DNA of 64,000 nucleotides, from positions 930,001 through 994,000 of the forward strand of contig NZ_CP109583.1 in the NCBI RefSeq assembly GCF_036250755.1, in the 5' to 3' direction. Shown in pieces: positions 55,705-64,000 of this stretch (positions are counted from its first letter, which is position 1; each line of letters opens with the position of its first letter). The translations under genes were made by a program, and so were the position numbers. Below the pieces are notes generated by a model. That model was not told the DNA's origin and made no database searches. It saw only the letters and a program-made list of their open reading frames with translations. This DNA comes from Streptomyces uncialis (GTDB lineage: Bacteria; Actinomycetota; Actinomycetes; Streptomycetales; Streptomycetaceae).

Positions 55705-56289
55705 CTAAGCGGCGTTCTCCGTGCGCGCCCGCAGGGCGGCGAGCGTTGCCTCCAGCGCACCCGCGTCCGAGCGATTGTGCGGCAGCCGGGACAGCACCTG
55801 GGCCATCCCGCAGGTGTTCGTGACGGCGGAGAAGACGAGACCGCCCGCGATCCCGGCGGAGATCCACCGGGCCGCGTTCCACCGCTGCCCCGCGACCAGC
55901 CCGGTCAGCACCACGGACCCCGCGGTGAACCGCACCTGCCGCTCCATCGCCCAGACCGCACGGCCTCGCGCGGGCGTGTCCAGCGGGTGGCCGAGCCGCG
56001 CCCACTCGGTCGTACCCCCGGTCAGGGTGGTGGCCGTCACCCCCTGCTCGGCGAGGGTCCCGCACGCCTGCGCGGAGCGGGTCCCCGAGGCGCACACGAC
56101 CAGCAGGTCCGTGCGCTCGGCGGCGTCCCGCAGCGCGGGCAGCGCGGTGCGGAGCTCGTCCAGCGGGATGTTCAGCGCGTCCGGGAGGTGCCCGGAGGCG
56201 AACTCGCCCGGCGTACGGACGTCGATCACGGTCATCGTGGCGAGCCGCTGGGCGGCCTGCTGGGGGGCGAGGGCGGGAGATGTGGTCAC
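55705..56289 (-). CDS. Rhodanese-domain membrane protein
   Basis: 194 residues from GTG 56289 (AAGGA seven bases upstream). A rhodanese domain covers ~1-105: TVIDVRTPGEFASGHLPDALN and the active-site loop CASGTRS with Cys66. Two membrane helices follow (~120-165; FTAGSVVLTGLVAGQRW, then WISAGIAGGLVFSAVTNTCGM), matching the DUF2892 pattern. It transfers sulfane sulfur from a persulfide at the membrane. It diverges from the CstR-like regulator with one operator between, so it belongs to the sulfur-stress regulon. Confidence 0.9.
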   Translation of the reverse strand: MTTSPALAPQQAAQRLATMTVIDVRTPGEFASGHLPDALNIPLDELRTALPALRDAAERTDLLVVCASGTRSAQACGTLAEQGVTATTLTGGTTEWARLGHPLDTPARGRAVWAMERQVRFTAGSVVLTGLVAGQRWNAARWISAGIAGGLVFSAVTNTCGMAQVLSRLPHNRSDAGALEATLAALRARTENAA

Positions 56290-56329
56290 AGGATCGTCCT
56301 TACTCTTCAGTGGTCCACGCCTCCGGTAG

Positions 56330-56644
<315 letters not shown>

Positions 56645-56649
56645 CCCTT

Positions 56650-56669
56650 CCCGGGCGGCACCGCCCGGG
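56650..56669. terminator. Hairpin between CstR-like and TauE genes
   Basis: CCCGGGCG-GCAC-CGCCCGGG, an eight-pair stem just after the CstR stop, between converging genes. Confidence 0.7.
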
Positions 56670-56737
56670 GCCGGCCCGGACCCCGACAGGTACCGGCGGG
56701 GCACAGGCAGCGCCGGGCGCCGACCGCGGGCGCGTGC

Positions 56738-57478
56738 TCATCGGACGGCGTCCACGAGCATCAGCACCGCGACGGCGAGCAGCACGCCCGCGAACACCCG
56801 CCGGAGCATGGCGTCCGGCATCTTCGCCGCGAGGCGCTTGCCGTCCCAGGCGGCCAGGACCGCGGCGGCCGTGAACGGGGCGACGACCGCCCAGTCGACG
56901 CCCGTGCCCGAGCCGCCCCGGACGGCCAGGGACACGACCGAGTTCACCGACACGACGAGCAGTCCCGTGGCGACGGCGGCCCGCAGTTCGAACGCCAGCA
57001 CACCCACCAGCGCCGGTACGGCGAGGAATCCGCCGCCGACACCGAGCAGCCCGGTCAGCGCACCGAGCCCGGCCCCCGTACCGGCGGCCTTCAGCGGCCG
57101 TACGGTGGCGGGCTCCGGGGTGTCCGGACGCAGCATCCGCAGGGCCGCGAGGCCCGCGACCCCGGCGAACGCCGCGGTGAGCAGCGCGCCGGGCAGCCGG
57201 TCCGCCAGGCTCGCCGTCGCCGCGGCGGGGAGCACCCCCGCCGCGGCGAAGAGCGCACCGCTCCGCCAGCGGACGGCCCCGGCGCGCGCGTGGGCGTACA
57301 GCGCGGTCAGCGAGGTCACGGTGACGATCAGCAGGCTCGCGGTGGTCGCCTCGACGGGTGTGAAGCCGAGCAGGTAGATCAGCGCGGGCACCGCGAGGAC
57401 TCCCCCGCCACCGCCCAGTGCCCCGAGCGCGAGGCCCACGACGCCTCCGGCGGCGAGGGCGAGTATCAGTTCGCTCAT
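56738..57478 (-). CDS. TauE/SafE family sulfite/organosulfur permease
   Basis: 246 residues with about eight membrane helices. The two TauE half-motifs are present: ALGALGGGGGVLAVPALIYLLG near residue 20 and ALTGLLGVGGGFLAVPALVGVL near residue 140. These proteins export sulfite or sulfoacetate-type anions. In the sulfur-stress setting it would remove sulfite or thiosulfate made by the persulfide dioxygenase encoded 190 bases upstream on the same strand. Confidence 0.9.
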   Translation of the reverse strand: MSELILALAAGGVVGLALGALGGGGGVLAVPALIYLLGFTPVEATTASLLIVTVTSLTALYAHARAGAVRWRSGALFAAAGVLPAAATASLADRLPGALLTAAFAGVAGLAALRMLRPDTPEPATVRPLKAAGTGAGLGALTGLLGVGGGFLAVPALVGVLAFELRAAVATGLLVVSVNSVVSLAVRGGSGTGVDWAVVAPFTAAAVLAAWDGKRLAAKMPDAMLRRVFAGVLLAVAVLMLVDAVR

Positions 57479-57668
57479 GTCAGGCCACCCGGGGGCGACA
57501 TCGCTCCCGGCGGTGACCGGGGGCGCGGCAAGGGCAACACATGGTGCACTCCGTACGGGGACTGGGACCGGCCGGGCCCGGTCGCGGGCACAGCAGGAAA
57601 AGGGAACCGACTGACGGCAGGGGGGCGTGAGCGGACCGGGGCGGTCGCTCGGCGCCGTGTTCGTACGG

Positions 57669-59075
57669 CTAGACCCGGGCCCCGGCCGGTCCGGCGACGG
57701 TGAGCCCGGCGCGTTCCGCCGCGTCGAAGCCGTCGTCGACGGCGACGACCCGCCGCCCCGCCGCGTCCAGCAGCGACGCGGCGATCGCCGCGCGCATCCC
57801 GCCCGCGCAGTGCACCCACACCACCCCGGGCGGCACCTGCGCGATCCGGTCGCGCAGCTCATGGACCGGGATGTGCACCGATCCGGCGACATACCCGGCG
57901 GCGCGCTCGGAGTCGCGGCGTACGTCGAGGACGACGATGTCCTCGTCCGTGTTCCCGGAGTCCTCCCCGTCCGCCGCGCGTGCGGCGGCGAGGTCGGCGA
58001 AGGTCGCGCGGGGGAAGGCGGCCAGGGTCTCGCCCTCGCGGACCCAGGTCCGGGGGTCGCCGGTGGCCGCCGCGGCGGGCCGGTCGATACCGACCCGGGC
58101 CAGCTCCCGCTGCGCCCGGGTGATCTGCTCGGGGGTGCTGCCGAGCAGGGTGACGGGCTTGCCCCAGGGGATCAGCCAGGCGAGGTAGGTGGCGAGCTTG
58201 CCCTCCTCCTCGAAGTTCAGCGATCCCGCCAGATGCCCCCGCGCGAAGGCGACCCGGTCCCGCAGATCGACCACCCACTCCCCCGCGGCGAGCCGGGCGG
58301 CGAGCTCCCCGGCGTCGGCCGGACGCGGCGGGGTGAGGTCCAAGGGTGCGGGACCGGCCGCGTTCGCGGGTCCCATGTGCGCGTAGTACGCGGGTACGTC
58401 GTCGAGTCCGGCGAGCAGTTCGGTGACGAAGCTGTCGACGTCCCGGGTCAGCGCGGCGTTCATCAGACGTTCGGCGCCTATCGTGCTCGCCCCGCCGCCC
58501 GCACCGGAACCGGACGAGCAGAAGCTTCCGAAGCCGTGCGTCGGGAGGACCGGCACCTCGTCCGCGAGGGTGTCAGCGAGCCGGTGCGCCGAGGCGTGCT
58601 GGGCGCGGGCGAGCTGTTCCGTGAGCCGGGGTTCGACCAGGTCGGGGCGGCCGACCCCGCCTATGAGAAGTGATCCGCCGGTGAACGCGGCGACGCCCCG
58701 CCCGTCCTCCTCAAGGATGTACGAGGTGTGATGGGGAGTGTGCCCGGGGGTGGCCAGGGCACGCAGGGCCAGACCCTCGTCCACCTGAACGGTGTCACCG
58801 TCGGTGACCGGGGTACGCGCGAAGGAGACGGCCGCGGCGGCCGGGACGAGGTAGTGGGCACCGGTGAGGCGCGCCAGCTCCAGTCCGCCGGTGACGTAGT
58901 CGTTGTGGAGGTGGGTCTCGGCGACATGGGTGATCCGGACGCCCCGGCGGGCCGCCGCGGCGATGACCTGGTCGATGTCCCGAGGGGGGTCCACGGCTAC
59001 CGCCGTGGCGTCGCCCCCGGCCAGGTAGCTGCGGTTTCCCAGACCCTCGAACTCCAGGGTGTCGACGAAGAACAC
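57669..59075 (-). CDS. Persulfide dioxygenase-rhodanese fusion (MBL fold)
   Basis: 468 residues from GTG 59075 (GAGGAG nine bases upstream). The metallo-beta-lactamase domain (~1-240) is of the ETHE1 type: THLHNDYVTGG (His55, His57, Asp59), GHTPHHTSY and LPTHGFGSFC. Two rhodanese domains follow. The first (~265-345; VVDLRDRVAFARGHLAGSLN) lacks the active-site Cys (LLGSTPEQ). The second (~375-465) has it in WVHCAGGMRA. The enzyme oxidises glutathione- or mycothiol-type persulfide to sulfite, as CstB does. Two operators lie just upstream. Confidence 0.92.
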   Translation of the reverse strand: MFFVDTLEFEGLGNRSYLAGGDATAVAVDPPRDIDQVIAAAARRGVRITHVAETHLHNDYVTGGLELARLTGAHYLVPAAAAVSFARTPVTDGDTVQVDEGLALRALATPGHTPHHTSYILEEDGRGVAAFTGGSLLIGGVGRPDLVEPRLTEQLARAQHASAHRLADTLADEVPVLPTHGFGSFCSSGSGAGGGASTIGAERLMNAALTRDVDSFVTELLAGLDDVPAYYAHMGPANAAGPAPLDLTPPRPADAGELAARLAAGEWVVDLRDRVAFARGHLAGSLNFEEEGKLATYLAWLIPWGKPVTLLGSTPEQITRAQRELARVGIDRPAAAATGDPRTWVREGETLAAFPRATFADLAAARAADGEDSGNTDEDIVVLDVRRDSERAAGYVAGSVHIPVHELRDRIAQVPPGVVWVHCAGGMRAAIAASLLDAAGRRVVAVDDGFDAAERAGLTVAGPAGARV

Positions 59076-59098
59076 GGCTCCACACTCCTCACACGCAT

Positions 59099-59114
59099 GT
59101 ACCCCCCGGGGTAT
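59099..59114. promoter_or_regulatory. CstR/CsoR-type operator 2
   Basis: GTACCC-CCCG-GGGTAT, one mismatch to the arm consensus, 24 bases upstream of the persulfide dioxygenase GTG. Confidence 0.8.
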
Positions 59115-59134
59115 TTTCAGCCACCCTAACATCT

Positions 59135-60475: not shown

Positions 60476-60605
60476 GATGCGGTGACCCGGTCCTGACCGG
60501 GCGTCACAACTGAATGCGGGGACGACTGGGGGAAGCCGGTGGGATTCCGGCGCTGACCTGCAACCGTGTGCGGCGCGAGGCCGCGAGTCGGAGCACCCGG
60601 CGTCC
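60476..60605 (+). promoter_or_regulatory. Cobalamin riboswitch
   Basis: The B12-box landmarks are all visible: GGGGGAAGCCGGTGGGATTC (60528-60547), CCGGCGCTGACCTGCAACCG (60548-60567), a GC-rich arm GCGGCGCGAGGCCGC (60570-60584) and GAGTCGGAGCACCCGG (60585-60600). A hairpin (GTGAC..GTCAC, 60483-60507) precedes it. The element reads into the DUF4430 gene 168 bases downstream. High adenosyl- or methylcobalamin should turn that gene off. Exact 5' limit is approximate. Confidence 0.93.
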
Positions 60606-60728
60606 CACGCGCGCCGCTTCTCCCTGTCATGGTCCGCAGTGCGAAGCCCCGGGTGCCGGTCCTCACCGCCCCGCCGCAGTCCCTCCGCACACCCGGACGG
60701 GAAACGGCGGGCGGGCGATGCCCGGTGC

Positions 60729-60749
60729 GGGGCCCGTGCCGCGGGCCCC
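60729..60749 (+). promoter_or_regulatory. Expression-platform hairpin before the DUF4430 gene
   Basis: GGGGCCCG-TGCCG-CGGGCCCC, eight pairs, ends ten bases before the AGGAGG ribosome site (60759-60764). It could act as the riboswitch's termination or translation-control element. Confidence 0.55.
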
Positions 60750-60772
60750 GTAACCGCCAGGAGGCACCCGCC

Positions 60773-61282
60773 ATGAACCGCACCCTGACCAGGGCCGTCG
60801 TCACCACGGCCGCCCTCGGACTCGCGCTCACCAGCGCGCCCGCCGTCGCCGGACCGGGCACGCACCCGAGCACGGCCGTGGCCACGGCCACGAACACCAA
60901 CGCGCCGATCAAGGTCAAGCTCACGGTGCAGGGCCCGGACGGGCTCCTGTTCAAGGGCAAGGTCAGAACGAAGGGCCACCACGTCACCCCGGCGACCGGT
61001 GGCTCCTACAAGTGCGACGGCACCAACGGCGGCGCCCACCCCAGCGCGGTGCCCACCCCGACCGCCGCCCTGGACGACGCGGCCCGCAAGCGGGGCTTCA
61101 GCTGGGACGGCACGTGGTACCCGTCGTTCGAGGACTACTTCGTGGAGAGCGTCAAGAACGTCAGCGGCGGCGGTGTCGCGTACTGGAACATCTCCGTCAA
61201 CGGCGTGCCGACCCCGGTCGGCGGCTGCCAGTTCAAGCTGAACGCGGGCGACCAGGTCGCGTTCACCTGGACCGCCTTCTAG
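60773..61282 (+). CDS. Secreted DUF4430 protein under B12 riboswitch control
   Basis: 169 residues from ATG 60773; AGGAGG is eight bases upstream. A Sec signal peptide (1-26, cut near APAVAG) precedes the DUF4430 domain (~45-169). Family features are IKVKLTVQGPDG, AALDDAARKRGFSWDGTWY, YWNISVNGVPTPVGGCQF and the closing LNAGDQVAFTW. DUF4430 is the beta domain of human transcobalamin and intrinsic factor. With a cobalamin riboswitch in front, a B12-capture role at the cell surface is a strong inference. It has no anchor (no lipobox, LPXTG or membrane helix), so it is released or held by a partner. Confidence 0.9.
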   Translation: MNRTLTRAVVTTAALGLALTSAPAVAGPGTHPSTAVATATNTNAPIKVKLTVQGPDGLLFKGKVRTKGHHVTPATGGSYKCDGTNGGAHPSAVPTPTAALDDAARKRGFSWDGTWYPSFEDYFVESVKNVSGGGVAYWNISVNGVPTPVGGCQFKLNAGDQVAFTWTAF

Positions 61283-61613
61283 GAATGCCCTGCCGACCCC
61301 GTCGGATCGTGCGCGGTGACGTGCCCGTTCGGCGGGTCGGTGGGCCCGTTCGGGGATCGTGGCCTTGATCCCCCGTCGGCGGAGGTGGGCCGAGCATGCG
61401 CGGTCCAAGCAGCCCTCGCCGACGCCCACATGGCGGCCGGCCGGGTCCGGGTCTTCCCGGACCCGGCCGTCGGCCGCCGAAGCCGTCCAGCGGTGGGAGG
61501 ACCGGCCGTGGGCGACGCGGCCGTGCGGGTACCGGTCCCGGGCCCGGCAGACCGCACCCGTGGAGGCCCACGCCGAACTCGGCTCGGTCGGCGGCCCTGT
61601 TGAGGCACGGGTC
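61283..61613. other. Non-coding gap between converging genes
   Basis: 331 bases. Apart from the hairpin at 61437-61468 I see no feature. Open frames across it have inconsistent codon bias, and none matches a protein I know, although a decayed gene cannot be excluded. Confidence 0.5.
61437..61468. terminator. Strong bidirectional hairpin terminator
   Basis: A 14-pair perfect stem (CGGCCGGGTCCGGG, loop TCTT, CCCGGACCCGGCCG) with further partial pairing out to 61431-61474. It lies between the converging DUF4430 and membrane-protein genes. Confidence 0.85.
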
Positions 61614-62174
61614 TCACGCGGCGGCGGAGACTCGACGGCGGTAGTAGGCGATCGCGAGGGCGATGGTGATGGGTCCCCATGCGGCGATGGGGGTGACGCA
61701 CACCGTCGCGAGCGTCTGCCAGGCGGTGTTGGTGTACTCGACGGATTCCGCGATGCCGTACAGGGTGAGATTTCGACCGCCGCCGATCGGGACGGCGGTG
61801 AACAGAAGAGTGAGGATCAGCCCGCCGAGGACCGCGGGGGCGACCGCCGCCATCGGCCGGACGCGTCTGCCGCCGATGACCGGTATCCAGGCGGGCGCCA
61901 CTTCTCCCCAGCCCCGGACCAGCCCGATGGTCAGGATCGCGATCACTTCCGACAACACGCTGAGCCCGAGGACGTACGGGACGCTCACCCAGTAACCCGG
62001 CATCCCGGCCTCCTGCATCTGCCCCATGTCGAAGTGCAGGGCGAAGGGCAGCCGCCACAAGCAGCTCGGCAGCAGGAGCAGCGGGAGCGCGTAGGCGAGG
62101 CGCGTCGCCCAGCGGGGAACGGGCCGCTCGGTGTCACCGACGGTCGGGGGCCTGTGCAGGATGTTCAGCGTCAT
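61614..62174 (-). CDS. Integral membrane protein, unknown
   Basis: 186 residues from ATG 62174 (AGGGTGG upstream); the frame is open to 62216. Four or five hydrophobic helices: LAYALPLLLLPSCLWRLPF, VSVPYVLGLSVLSEVIAILTIGLV, MAAVAPAVLGGLILTLLFTAV and LATVCVTPIAAWGPITIALAIAYY. It has no motif of ECF or BtuCD transporters that I can recognise, so a link to the B12 genes is not supported. Probably a single gene. Confidence 0.7.
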   Translation of the reverse strand: MTLNILHRPPTVGDTERPVPRWATRLAYALPLLLLPSCLWRLPFALHFDMGQMQEAGMPGYWVSVPYVLGLSVLSEVIAILTIGLVRGWGEVAPAWIPVIGGRRVRPMAAVAPAVLGGLILTLLFTAVPIGGGRNLTLYGIAESVEYTNTAWQTLATVCVTPIAAWGPITIALAIAYYRRRVSAAA

Positions 62175-62294
62175 GGCTCCACCCTGAAGGAGCGGGGACG
62201 ACGGGGAATCATCCATGGGAACCGAACCGCTAGCCCTCGCGGGGGAGTAGTACCGAGCAGCCTCCCTCCCGAGAGGTAGCGTTCCGATGCGCGG

Positions 62295-62780
62295 TCAGCT
62301 CCGCTCACCGTTCCCGCGTCCGGGCCGGCCCCGGGCGGAGGAGGGCGCGGTGCCCGTCGGTGCGGCCGGGGGCCCGTAGCGCTCGTAGTAGTCCTGGAGC
62401 AGTCCCGATCCCTCCAGCACGGTGTCCGCCCAGGACGGGTCGAGGCCGGCCGGGGCGGGATCGGTCGCGACGGCGCACGCTCCGGTGAGCATCCCGGCGT
62501 AGACGAAGTCGGAGTGGAGATTGCTGATGCTGTCCGTCTCATGGAAGTTGACGGGACGGCCGTCGGCCAGCACGGTGACCTCGACGCCTCCGCGGAGGGT
62601 GTGCGTACGGGAGCAGGCCGGGAGCGCCGGGCGCGTGGCCGCGTCCTGGAAGGCGAGCGCTTCGAGGGCGGGAAGGTCGAACTCGCAGACGCAGACGCAG
62701 CAGAGACGTTCGGGGGATCGTATTCCCTGCTCCCACCGTCGATGATCAGGCCCACGACCGCAGGAGGACACCGTGCTCAC
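62295..62780 (-). CDS. Hypothetical protein
   Basis: Up to 161 residues; codon bias from about residue 33 onward is clearly that of a real gene (FDLPALEALAFQDAATRPAL, then VNFHETDSISNLHSDFVYAGM). The N-terminal ~30 residues (LCCVCVCEF from an AGACGC repeat) look poor. The only in-frame starts, GTG 62780 and GTG 62771, overlap the ribosome site or start of the divergent cupin gene. The true start is therefore uncertain, or the 5' end has decayed. No family recognised; no signal peptide or membrane helix. Confidence 0.5.
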   Translation of the reverse strand: MSTVSSCGRGPDHRRWEQGIRSPERLCCVCVCEFDLPALEALAFQDAATRPALPACSRTHTLRGGVEVTVLADGRPVNFHETDSISNLHSDFVYAGMLTGACAVATDPAPAGLDPSWADTVLEGSGLLQDYYERYGPPAAPTGTAPSSARGRPGRGNGERS

Positions 62781-63357
62781 GGCACGCTACTGGATCGACG
62801 CCCTCGGCCTGGAGGCCCATGTGGAGGGCGGTTACTACCGTCGGACCTTCCAGGCGGACCACCGCCCCACCACCCGTACACCCGACGGTGACCGCTACAC
62901 CCTGACCTCCATCCACTATCTCCTCACCCATTGGACAGCGATCGGGCACTGGCACCTGAACCGTTCCGACGTCCTCCACTTCCACCAGCACGGCGAACCC
63001 GTCACCTACCACCTGCTCCACCCCGACGGCCGTCACAGCACCGTCGTCCTCGGCCAGGACCCCCGGCAAGGACACACCCTCACCCTCGCCGTGCCCGGAG
63101 GTGTCTGGAAGGCCGCCCATCTCACCGCCGGGGACCACGCCCTCATCGGCGAAGCCGTCGCACCCGGATTCGACTGGGCCGACATGACCCTCGGCCGGTA
63201 CGAGGAACTCACGGCCCGCTTTCCCGGCCACAGCGAACTCGTCCACCGCTACTGCCGCCCCGACGGCCACCCGTCCCGTCCCACGAGTTCACCGGGCGCC
63301 CCGGCCGCCGGAACCCATGCTCATGAGCAACCCTTGACACCTCCGGCTCCGCCCTGA
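62773..63357 (+). CDS. Cupin protein, DUF985 (Cupin_5)
   Basis: 194 residues from GTG 62773 (AGGAGG five bases upstream). The DUF985 signature is present: LEAHVEGGYYRRTFQ, SIHYLLTHWTAIGHWHLNRSDVLHFHQHGEPV, VPGGVWKAAHL and the closing GEAVAPGFDWADMTLG. These small double-stranded beta-helix proteins are probably sugar epimerase- or lyase-like; the reaction is unknown. A His-rich metal-like site (HWHLNRSDVLHFHQHG) is notable. A Pro-rich tail of ~25 residues extends the usual length. Confidence 0.88.
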   Translation: MLTARYWIDALGLEAHVEGGYYRRTFQADHRPTTRTPDGDRYTLTSIHYLLTHWTAIGHWHLNRSDVLHFHQHGEPVTYHLLHPDGRHSTVVLGQDPRQGHTLTLAVPGGVWKAAHLTAGDHALIGEAVAPGFDWADMTLGRYEELTARFPGHSELVHRYCRPDGHPSRPTSSPGAPAAGTHAHEQPLTPPAPP

Positions 63358-63431
63358 CCGGACGGCGTCGCCGCGGGAGCGCCGGACGCGCGCGTACCGG
63401 CGCGGGCCGGGGTCGGCCGTCCGCGCGGTGC

Positions 63432-63465
63432 CCGGTGTCCCGGACCGCGAGGGCCGGGACACCGG
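63432..63465. terminator. Bidirectional hairpin terminator
   Basis: CCGGTGTCCCGG, 10-base loop, CCGGGACACCGG: a perfect 12-pair stem between the converging cupin and right-edge genes. Confidence 0.8.
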
Positions 63466-63477
63466 TACAGGTGCGGG

Positions 63478-64000
63478 TCAGACGCCCCAGCGCAGCGCGA
63501 TCGTGTCGCCGACCTGGACGACCCGGTCACGGGTCGCGGCGGCGGGCGCTGAACCGTCGACGCTCACCTTCCATGTCGAAGTGCCGCTGTTGGCCTTGCC
63601 GTTGACGGCCGTGATGGTGCCCGTCGCCCCGCTCGCCGGGGTGACGGACGTGACACAGCCCGCCGGGGTCGCCGCGCCCGTGGCGGCGGTCAGCACCTCG
63701 CCGAGGGTGGTCGTGGTGCCGGTCGGGGTGAACGCCACCGAGCACACCGACAGACCGCCCGCGCCGTCATCGACGGACAGGGCGAGTTCGGTGGCCGTCC
63801 CCGGGGTGAACGCGCTCTGCGCGACCCACTGCGGAGCACCCGCGGTCACCGGCACCGGAGGCGCGGCGGTGAAACCGCCGCCTGCGACGGCGCGGAGCGC
63901 GTCGATCGACGCGTACGCCGACGGAGTGGTGTTGGCGGGCTGGTACTTGAAGCCGCCGCCGGGGTTGAACTGCTGGGCGATCAGGAAGTCGATCGGGGTG
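63478..64000 (-). CDS. C-terminus of a helical-barrel/DUF4430-like protein (transcobalamin-like), truncated by the window edge
   Basis: The frame runs off the right edge, leaving 173 codons. The N-terminal visible part, TPIDFLIAQQFNPGGGFKYQ then AYASIDALRAVAGGG, resembles the repeat of prenyltransferase/terpene-cyclase alpha-alpha barrels, the same fold as the N-terminal domain of transcobalamin. The rest, with two cysteines (LSVCSVAF, AGCVTSV) and the closing TSTWKVSVDG..VQVGDTIALRW, parallels the end of the DUF4430 protein encoded at 60773. A GTG at 63855 would be an internal codon. Probable surface B12-binding protein; its start, signal peptide and any riboswitch lie beyond the window. Confidence 0.75.
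   Translation of the reverse strand, partial: TPIDFLIAQQFNPGGGFKYQPANTTPSAYASIDALRAVAGGGFTAAPPVPVTAGAPQWVAQSAFTPGTATELALSVDDGAGGLSVCSVAFTPTGTTTTLGEVLTAATGAATPAGCVTSVTPASGATGTITAVNGKANSGTSTWKVSVDGSAPAAATRDRVVQVGDTIALRWGV

Follow-up and report, generated by a model that had tools for sequence, protein, structure and literature searches.

In a 64,000-nucleotide stretch of the 9.26-Mb genome of Streptomyces uncialis (hereafter, the window; contig NZ_CP109583.1, G000:C1:930001-994000), a cobalamin riboswitch precedes the gene for a secreted DUF4430 protein. This locus is very probably part of a B12-responsive corrinoid acquisition module in which transcobalamin-like proteins feed an energy-coupling factor (ECF) importer. 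Judged from genomic context, capture of B12 outside the cell by the secreted proteins is the best reading and is well supported, because DUF4430 genes are linked to riboswitches, toroid genes, and ecf genes across relatives.

In the proposed mechanism, low cellular cobalamin would leave the riboswitches permissive for expression, and the cell would export a free DUF4430 cap, a protein that combines toroid and cap, and a divergently encoded toroid protein with an LASTG signal. Outside the membrane, these proteins would bind corrinoid, which they would then deliver to an ECF importer (EcfT, fused ATPases, and EcfS) whose operon is itself preceded by a riboswitch. Once cobalamin is sufficient, the aptamer would close through its L5-L13 kissing loop and expression would drop.

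The window riboswitch and its DUF4430 gene

The window gene (60773..61282, plus strand) encodes a free, cap-like protein of 169 amino acids, with a signal peptide read by eye. The protein matches PF14478 at 33.5 bits (cutoff, 23.8) and retrieved no NCBIfam family at an E value of ≤1. Two cysteines, C81 and C152, are invariant in a 61-row alignment. Upstream, a cobalamin riboswitch (60500..60640, plus strand) was assigned by reading the sequence and by sensitive scans. Its RF00174 core (60529-60598, plus strand) scored 28.9 bits, with an E value of 1.7e-5 in a sensitive scan of 601 nucleotides and 6.3e-5 when the whole genome was searched. The element contains a B12 box (60550-60567), the L5 loop GACC (60555-60558), and a P13 hairpin (60624-60639) carrying the L13 sequence GGTC (60631-60634), all on the plus strand. 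A Shine-Dalgarno-like AGGAGG (60759..60764, plus strand), also read from the sequence, precedes the DUF4430 gene, and this purine-rich ribosome site is conserved in most of 24 aligned DUF4430 leaders. The first-pass annotation, made on this DNA without database searches, had described a B12-box element in front of a signal-peptide DUF4430 gene, and the profile matches bear it out.

The aligned leaders represent 24 of the 27 related leaders that have their own B12 box (L077, L081, and L088 were left out). Within them, standard pairs fill 98.7% of the 552 cells that cover the core helices, P13, and the L5-L13 kissing loop (shuffles, 97.2). Two-sided changes occurred in 5 aptamer pair cells (shuffles, 0.8), and the covariation score was 0.057 (shuffles, 0.033). 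By these counts, the RF00174 core and the kissing loop appear to be kept across relatives, as befits a member of the family. Several points temper the case for a kept structure. The aptamer structure used for the pair counts was drawn by hand from the window sequence, and most of its pairs are invariant across the 24 leaders. At least as many pairs showing change on both sides (n = 2) arose in 74/500 shuffles, and a slide of +3 yielded a covariation score of 0.058, equal to that of the drawn structure.

The window score also falls short of the Rfam gathering score (31.5 bits), and for this reason a default Rfam scan of the window listed no cobalamin riboswitch. Such a result would fit an element that had matched by chance or no longer functions, in front of a DUF4430 gene unrelated to B12. 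We consider this extremely improbable in view of the genome-wide E value, the pairing kept across the leaders, and the B12 box present upstream of the DUF4430 gene in 27/68 related loci.

Cobalamin riboswitches usually lower expression when B12 is present, and we infer the same for this leader from that usual behavior and from the nrdABS riboswitch of Streptomyces coelicolor. The latter offers a precedent for B12-lowered expression (PMC4991794). A conserved GCUUCCC element 3' of the aptamer pairs with the aptamer core better than most stretches do (mean rank, 0.11), and the predicted minimum-energy structure for the window leader includes the same helix (z, -1.5). We favor this helix, which would disrupt the aptamer, as a possible expression platform. 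An anti-Shine-Dalgarno switch was dropped as a candidate, since pairing of GCUUCCC with the ribosome site is unexceptional within the leader (mean rank, 0.43 across the 24 leaders).

Toroid proteins and ECF importers of the host

The right edge of the window holds the 3' part (63478..64000, minus strand) of a gene for a toroid-plus-DUF4430-like secreted protein, which reaches genome position 994911. Completed from the genome (L012:8479-9912, minus strand), the gene encodes 477 amino acids laid out as a signal peptide, a toroid-like part, and a DUF4430-like end. A contig of S. uncialis DCA2648 encodes both this protein and the window DUF4430 protein, each 100% identical. In profile-profile comparisons, the C terminus of the 477-residue protein matched the window DUF4430 family (E value, 5.6e-5; probability, 66%) and the DUF4430 lipoproteins of other actinobacteria (E value, 3.5e-5; probability, 72%). 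In an AlphaFold model built with 25 close relatives, the first 342 residues hold 13 helices and strands begin at residue 374; residues 391-477 are fairly confident (block means, 70-91).

Other results speak against this assignment. The complete protein scores 18.2 bits against PF14478 and its 173-residue in-window fragment scores 19.8 bits, both under the cutoff of 23.8, and every squalene-cyclase-type toroid match lies under its Pfam cutoff. The model as a whole is of low confidence (mean predicted local distance difference test [pLDDT] score, 52.8; predicted template modeling score, 0.44), with the first 155 residues below a pLDDT of 50 and the remaining helical part mixed. Four alignments (right-edge, DUF4430, toroid, and lipoprotein-type DUF4430; E-value limits of 1, 1, 1, and 10, respectively) were searched against solved structures and retrieved no transcobalamin; squalene-hopene cyclases were matched by the toroid one. 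No match to the eukaryotic cobalamin-binding profile (Pfam Cobalamin_bind) was listed at an E value of ≤1 for the 8 + 4 proteins scanned. Thus, the barrel and DUF4430-like end first proposed for the right-edge protein both find matches, but these are weak, all being under the cutoff and accompanied by a low-confidence model.

Beyond the window, the riboswitch of the 477-residue protein gene (995037-995110, minus strand; 31.3 bits) lies back to back with that of a divergent gene (995203-995327, plus strand; 23.8 bits), both being RF00174 matches under the cutoff. The divergent gene encodes a 1,023-residue protein with Pfam toroid matches above the cutoff. A signal peptide was recognized in it by eye, and a LASTG motif plus membrane segment at its C terminus constitute a cell wall sorting signal. 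A further riboswitch (1012510, plus strand; 27.5 bits, under the cutoff), 18.5 kb past the window end, precedes an operon of ecfT, fused ecfA, and ecfS. EcfT matches PF02361 (45.2 bits; cutoff, 25) and EcfS matches PF12822 (31.9 bits; cutoff, 30.7); the fused ATPase was recognized by reading its translation. Because a cobalamin riboswitch precedes the operon, its substrate is probably cobalamin. The first-pass annotation had looked to the sequence past position 64000 for a second riboswitch and ECF genes, and both are there, together with a third riboswitch.

The genome contains a second such operon at 6663853 (L017; genome C1:6658000-6672000), in the order riboswitch, SCO2321-type toroid, SCO2322-type protein, ecfT, fused ecfA, and ecfS. 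Both SCO-type proteins have C-terminal membrane segments and match the SCO2321 and SCO2322 NCBIfam families above the cutoff (560.7 and 229.2 bits). These cutoffs were reached by none of the window DUF4430, 477-residue, and 1,023-residue proteins; the last scored 134.9 of 300 bits and 21.2 of 85 bits. The notion of a B12-capturing pair, with which this analysis began, is therefore retained for capture, the best reading from context, but is too narrow as a pair, because at least three such proteins and a second operon are present and because many relatives have a DUF4430 gene behind a separate toroid gene.

In total, 11 RF00174 matches were found in the genome at an E value of ≤1, 6 of them above the gathering cutoff. 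All three neighborhood riboswitches (those of the window, 477-residue, and 1,023-residue protein genes) are under it. A riboswitch at 1019248 (minus strand; 83.2 bits) precedes a gene read as metE (L013:11734-14091), located near the ECF operon and ∼25 kb past the window end. As for the other riboswitches, the genes behind them were identified, by reading translations only, as btuFCD, cob biosynthesis, cobN, nrdA, and cbtBA. As a side observation, default annotation would miss 5/11 cobalamin riboswitches of this genome, which score under the Rfam gathering cutoff.

Cobalamin riboswitches sense finished corrinoid cofactors, and having ECF and metE genes as neighbors fits a B12 economy. Both points count against a different ligand, such as another corrinoid or a precursor (cobinamide or other cobamides) or a bulky cofactor, with B12 control arising because the pathway leads to B12. 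The occurrence of a free cap without a toroid would suit such a ligand, and Burroughs et al. also allowed for precursors or other metabolites (PMC1796856). We regard this alternative as improbable, though worth keeping in view.

Linkage across Streptomyces and Actinomycetota

Among 68 related DUF4430 loci, an own B12 box was scored by pattern (≤1 mismatch, 100-600 nucleotides upstream), which gave the 27 loci cited above. Another 21/68 had the DUF4430 gene behind ecfS plus a toroid gene (in two of these, the toroid was recognized only by 29-33% identity to the 1,023-residue protein), 7/68 had it behind ecfS, and 2/68 had it behind a toroid only. A relative of the 477-residue protein occurred within 26/68 loci, 21 with ecf genes and 25 with a divergent B12 box, and in relatives these genes are found together in a single cluster. 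Of the toroid rows, only L101 and L074 reach the C terminus, where they carry sorting signals of the LADTG or LAATG type.

A tree was made of 66/68 of these proteins, built on few columns and with many forks unresolved. A clade of 27 proteins (24 in an ECF or toroid context and 3 in neither) was split with a support of 99/92 from a clade of 39 that includes the window protein (26 with an own box, 6 behind ecfS, and 7 with neither). The three context labels require 4 changes on the tree (shuffled mean, 23.1), and the own-box label alone requires 3.

Within Streptomyces, RF00174 matches (E value, ≤1) lie on each strand of the interval that separates the fusion gene from the divergent gene in all toroid-fusion loci (15/15). 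Of 23 DUF4430 loci fetched from the genus, 20 were scanned, with 9 having an upstream same-strand riboswitch and 11 lacking one. Two of the latter (L029 and L035) have a downstream riboswitch. Ten of the 11 encode proteins ≤65% identical to the window protein, and that of L029 is 71% identical. DUF4430 genes that lack an upstream B12 box could be taken as unrelated, but the genus loci for which neighbors were read weaken this view, as a secreted toroid gene lies directly upstream in 6/8. Separately, in one genome (G127; L039 and L042) the DUF4430 match is split into two overlapping pieces in different frames, behind a B12 box that looks intact.

Across the phylum, PF14478 was found in 35/198 actinobacterial genomes, 32 of them outside Streptomyces. 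In the latter set, a same-strand riboswitch lies ≤5 kb upstream of DUF4430 in 20/32 genomes, a CbiQ-type EcfT gene lies ≤3 kb downstream in 17/32, and both occur in 16/32. A riboswitch adjoins DUF4430 in 20/22 genomes having any riboswitch at an E value of ≤1e-4, and 22/41 riboswitches are placed next to DUF4430, compared with ∼0.05 expected under uniform placement. Five regions (L156-L160) were read, with gene names assigned by reading except for profile-matched PF14478, EcfT, and riboswitches. L156 has the order propeller, DUF4430, ecfT, ecfA, and ecfS. L158 has two DUF4430 genes followed by ecfT, ecfA, and ecfS, with a toroid within the ecfS open frame, and L159 combines DUF4430, ECF sequences, and a toroid. 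DUF4430 genes lie behind a riboswitch in L157, where no EcfT was found near them. In L160 (G175:C1:545000-553000), DUF4430 proteins belong to an ECF operon, and the genome gave no riboswitch match at an E value of ≤1e-4.

These regions hold features of separate interest. The L160 operon includes a very long protein with several DUF4430 matches, and control or ligand may differ there. A toroid in or beside the ECF S-component frame (L158:2-1453 and L159:3837-5339) may represent an importer-toroid fusion in two distant actinobacteria. Propeller-like secreted proteins encoded between the riboswitch and DUF4430 (L156:548-3094 and L157:4924-7086; ∼3 kb long) recur in several distant actinobacteria.

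The position of importer genes bears on whether the captured corrinoid is imported. The secreted proteins might instead bind corrinoid mainly to hold it near the cell, keeping the host's own B12 or denying it to neighbors, rather than to feed an ECF importer. In favor of such retention, the host has cobI, its riboswitch-preceded genes include some read as B12 synthesis, and the DUF4430 protein, which carries no anchor itself, would diffuse. Against it, ecfS precedes 28/68 DUF4430 genes, and the EcfT gene is just downstream in 17 of the 32 other actinobacterial genomes; both point to import. Retention therefore seems quite unlikely.

For a B12 acquisition module feeding the ECF importer, several observations must be entered on the other side. 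The window DUF4430 gene and the ECF operon of the same genome lie ∼22 kb apart. The host cobI match is strong (220.8 bits; cutoff, 163.25), and because of this gene the host may be able to do without uptake. Occurrence within the genus is patchy, with the DUF4430 protein in 22/150 genomes and the 477-residue protein in 15/150 (own genome included in both counts). In 11/68 related loci no B12 link was seen, although L063 and L064 adjoin the gene for the 477-residue protein and its two riboswitches, and <1.5 kb of upstream sequence was available for L078 and L107. Finally, 11/32 genomes outside Streptomyces have neither a riboswitch nor an EcfT link.

Two further features of the window lie near the locus. 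A Cupin_5 (DUF985) protein (62773-63357; 141.7 bits) is encoded between the two DUF4430 genes, and a B12 link is not evident for it. Frames at 55705-59132 were read by eye as rhodanese-like and metallo-beta-lactamase-plus-rhodanese proteins, perhaps a persulfide response cluster.

Relation to known B12 carriers

In 2007, Burroughs et al. grouped the C-terminal domain of transcobalamin with secreted bacterial proteins (SLBB) and described toroid fusions, surface anchors, paralogous partners, and CbiO- and CbiQ-like operons (PMC1796856). On the basis of sequence prediction, with no experiment, they proposed scavenging of B12 or a precursor, as well as transfer of one bacterial version to animals. 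The proteins described here resemble them in being secreted or anchored, with a transcobalamin-type C-terminal domain, toroid fusions, paralogues, and CbiO/CbiQ neighbors, and the first-pass reading is in substance an independent rediscovery of that prediction. What is new is the riboswitch control, the actinobacterial setting, a host with a B12 synthesis gene, and the separate toroid and cap proteins in relatives. The 2007 text names low-GC Gram-positive bacteria, planctomycetes, and euryarchaea, in contrast to the present Streptomyces, and the words "riboswitch" and "Streptomyces" are absent from it. Its bacteria usually lack key B12 synthesis enzymes, whereas the present host has cobI, and the available portion of the text does not describe a toroid and a cap encoded by different genes.

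Animal transcobalamin, intrinsic factor, and haptocorrin likewise combine a toroid with a C-terminal DUF4430 domain, and short fish proteins consist of DUF4430 alone (PMC4350170). Sequence searches of solved structures gave no direct match to the animal carriers; the likeness is one of layout. The bacterial systems also differ in having separate chains in many relatives and an importer in place of receptor uptake. ECF-CbrT provides a precedent for ECF-type import of B12, but an extracytoplasmic carrier is not described in the accessible part of that report, where transcobalamin appears only in the reference list (PMC5997447). The Bacteroides lipoproteins BtuG and BtuH capture B12 at the surface for an importer (PMC6143338 and PMC8941943); they belong to another phylum, one with an outer membrane, and are likened here by role. 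The text of the BtuH paper mentions neither transcobalamin nor intrinsic factor (PMC8941943). In the openly licensed PubMed Central literature, we found no experiments on such bacterial transcobalamin-like proteins, no bacterial B12 role for DUF4430 in titles or abstract openings, and nothing relevant on SCO2321-SCO2325.

A more specific version of the acquisition module, to which we give slightly less than even chances, is a split transcobalamin in a B12-making bacterium. A wall-anchored toroid and a free beta-grasp cap (the window protein), on separate chains and each under its own B12 riboswitch, would cooperate to enclose B12 on the outside of a Gram-positive cell and hand it to the ECF S-component. 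More broadly, the linkage suggests what DUF4430, SCO2321, and SCO2322 proteins may do in Actinomycetota. Descent from such bacterial surface proteins has been put forward for animal intrinsic factor and transcobalamin (PMC1796856). The Streptomyces loci, with separate toroid and cap genes, B12-type leaders, and an importer nearby in nonpathogenic, easily grown organisms, make that proposal directly testable, and likewise the means by which ECF importers acquire a vitamin that is both scarce and bulky. If the split arrangement is true, it would be a living bacterial equivalent of the ancestor from which the animal B12 carriers arose.

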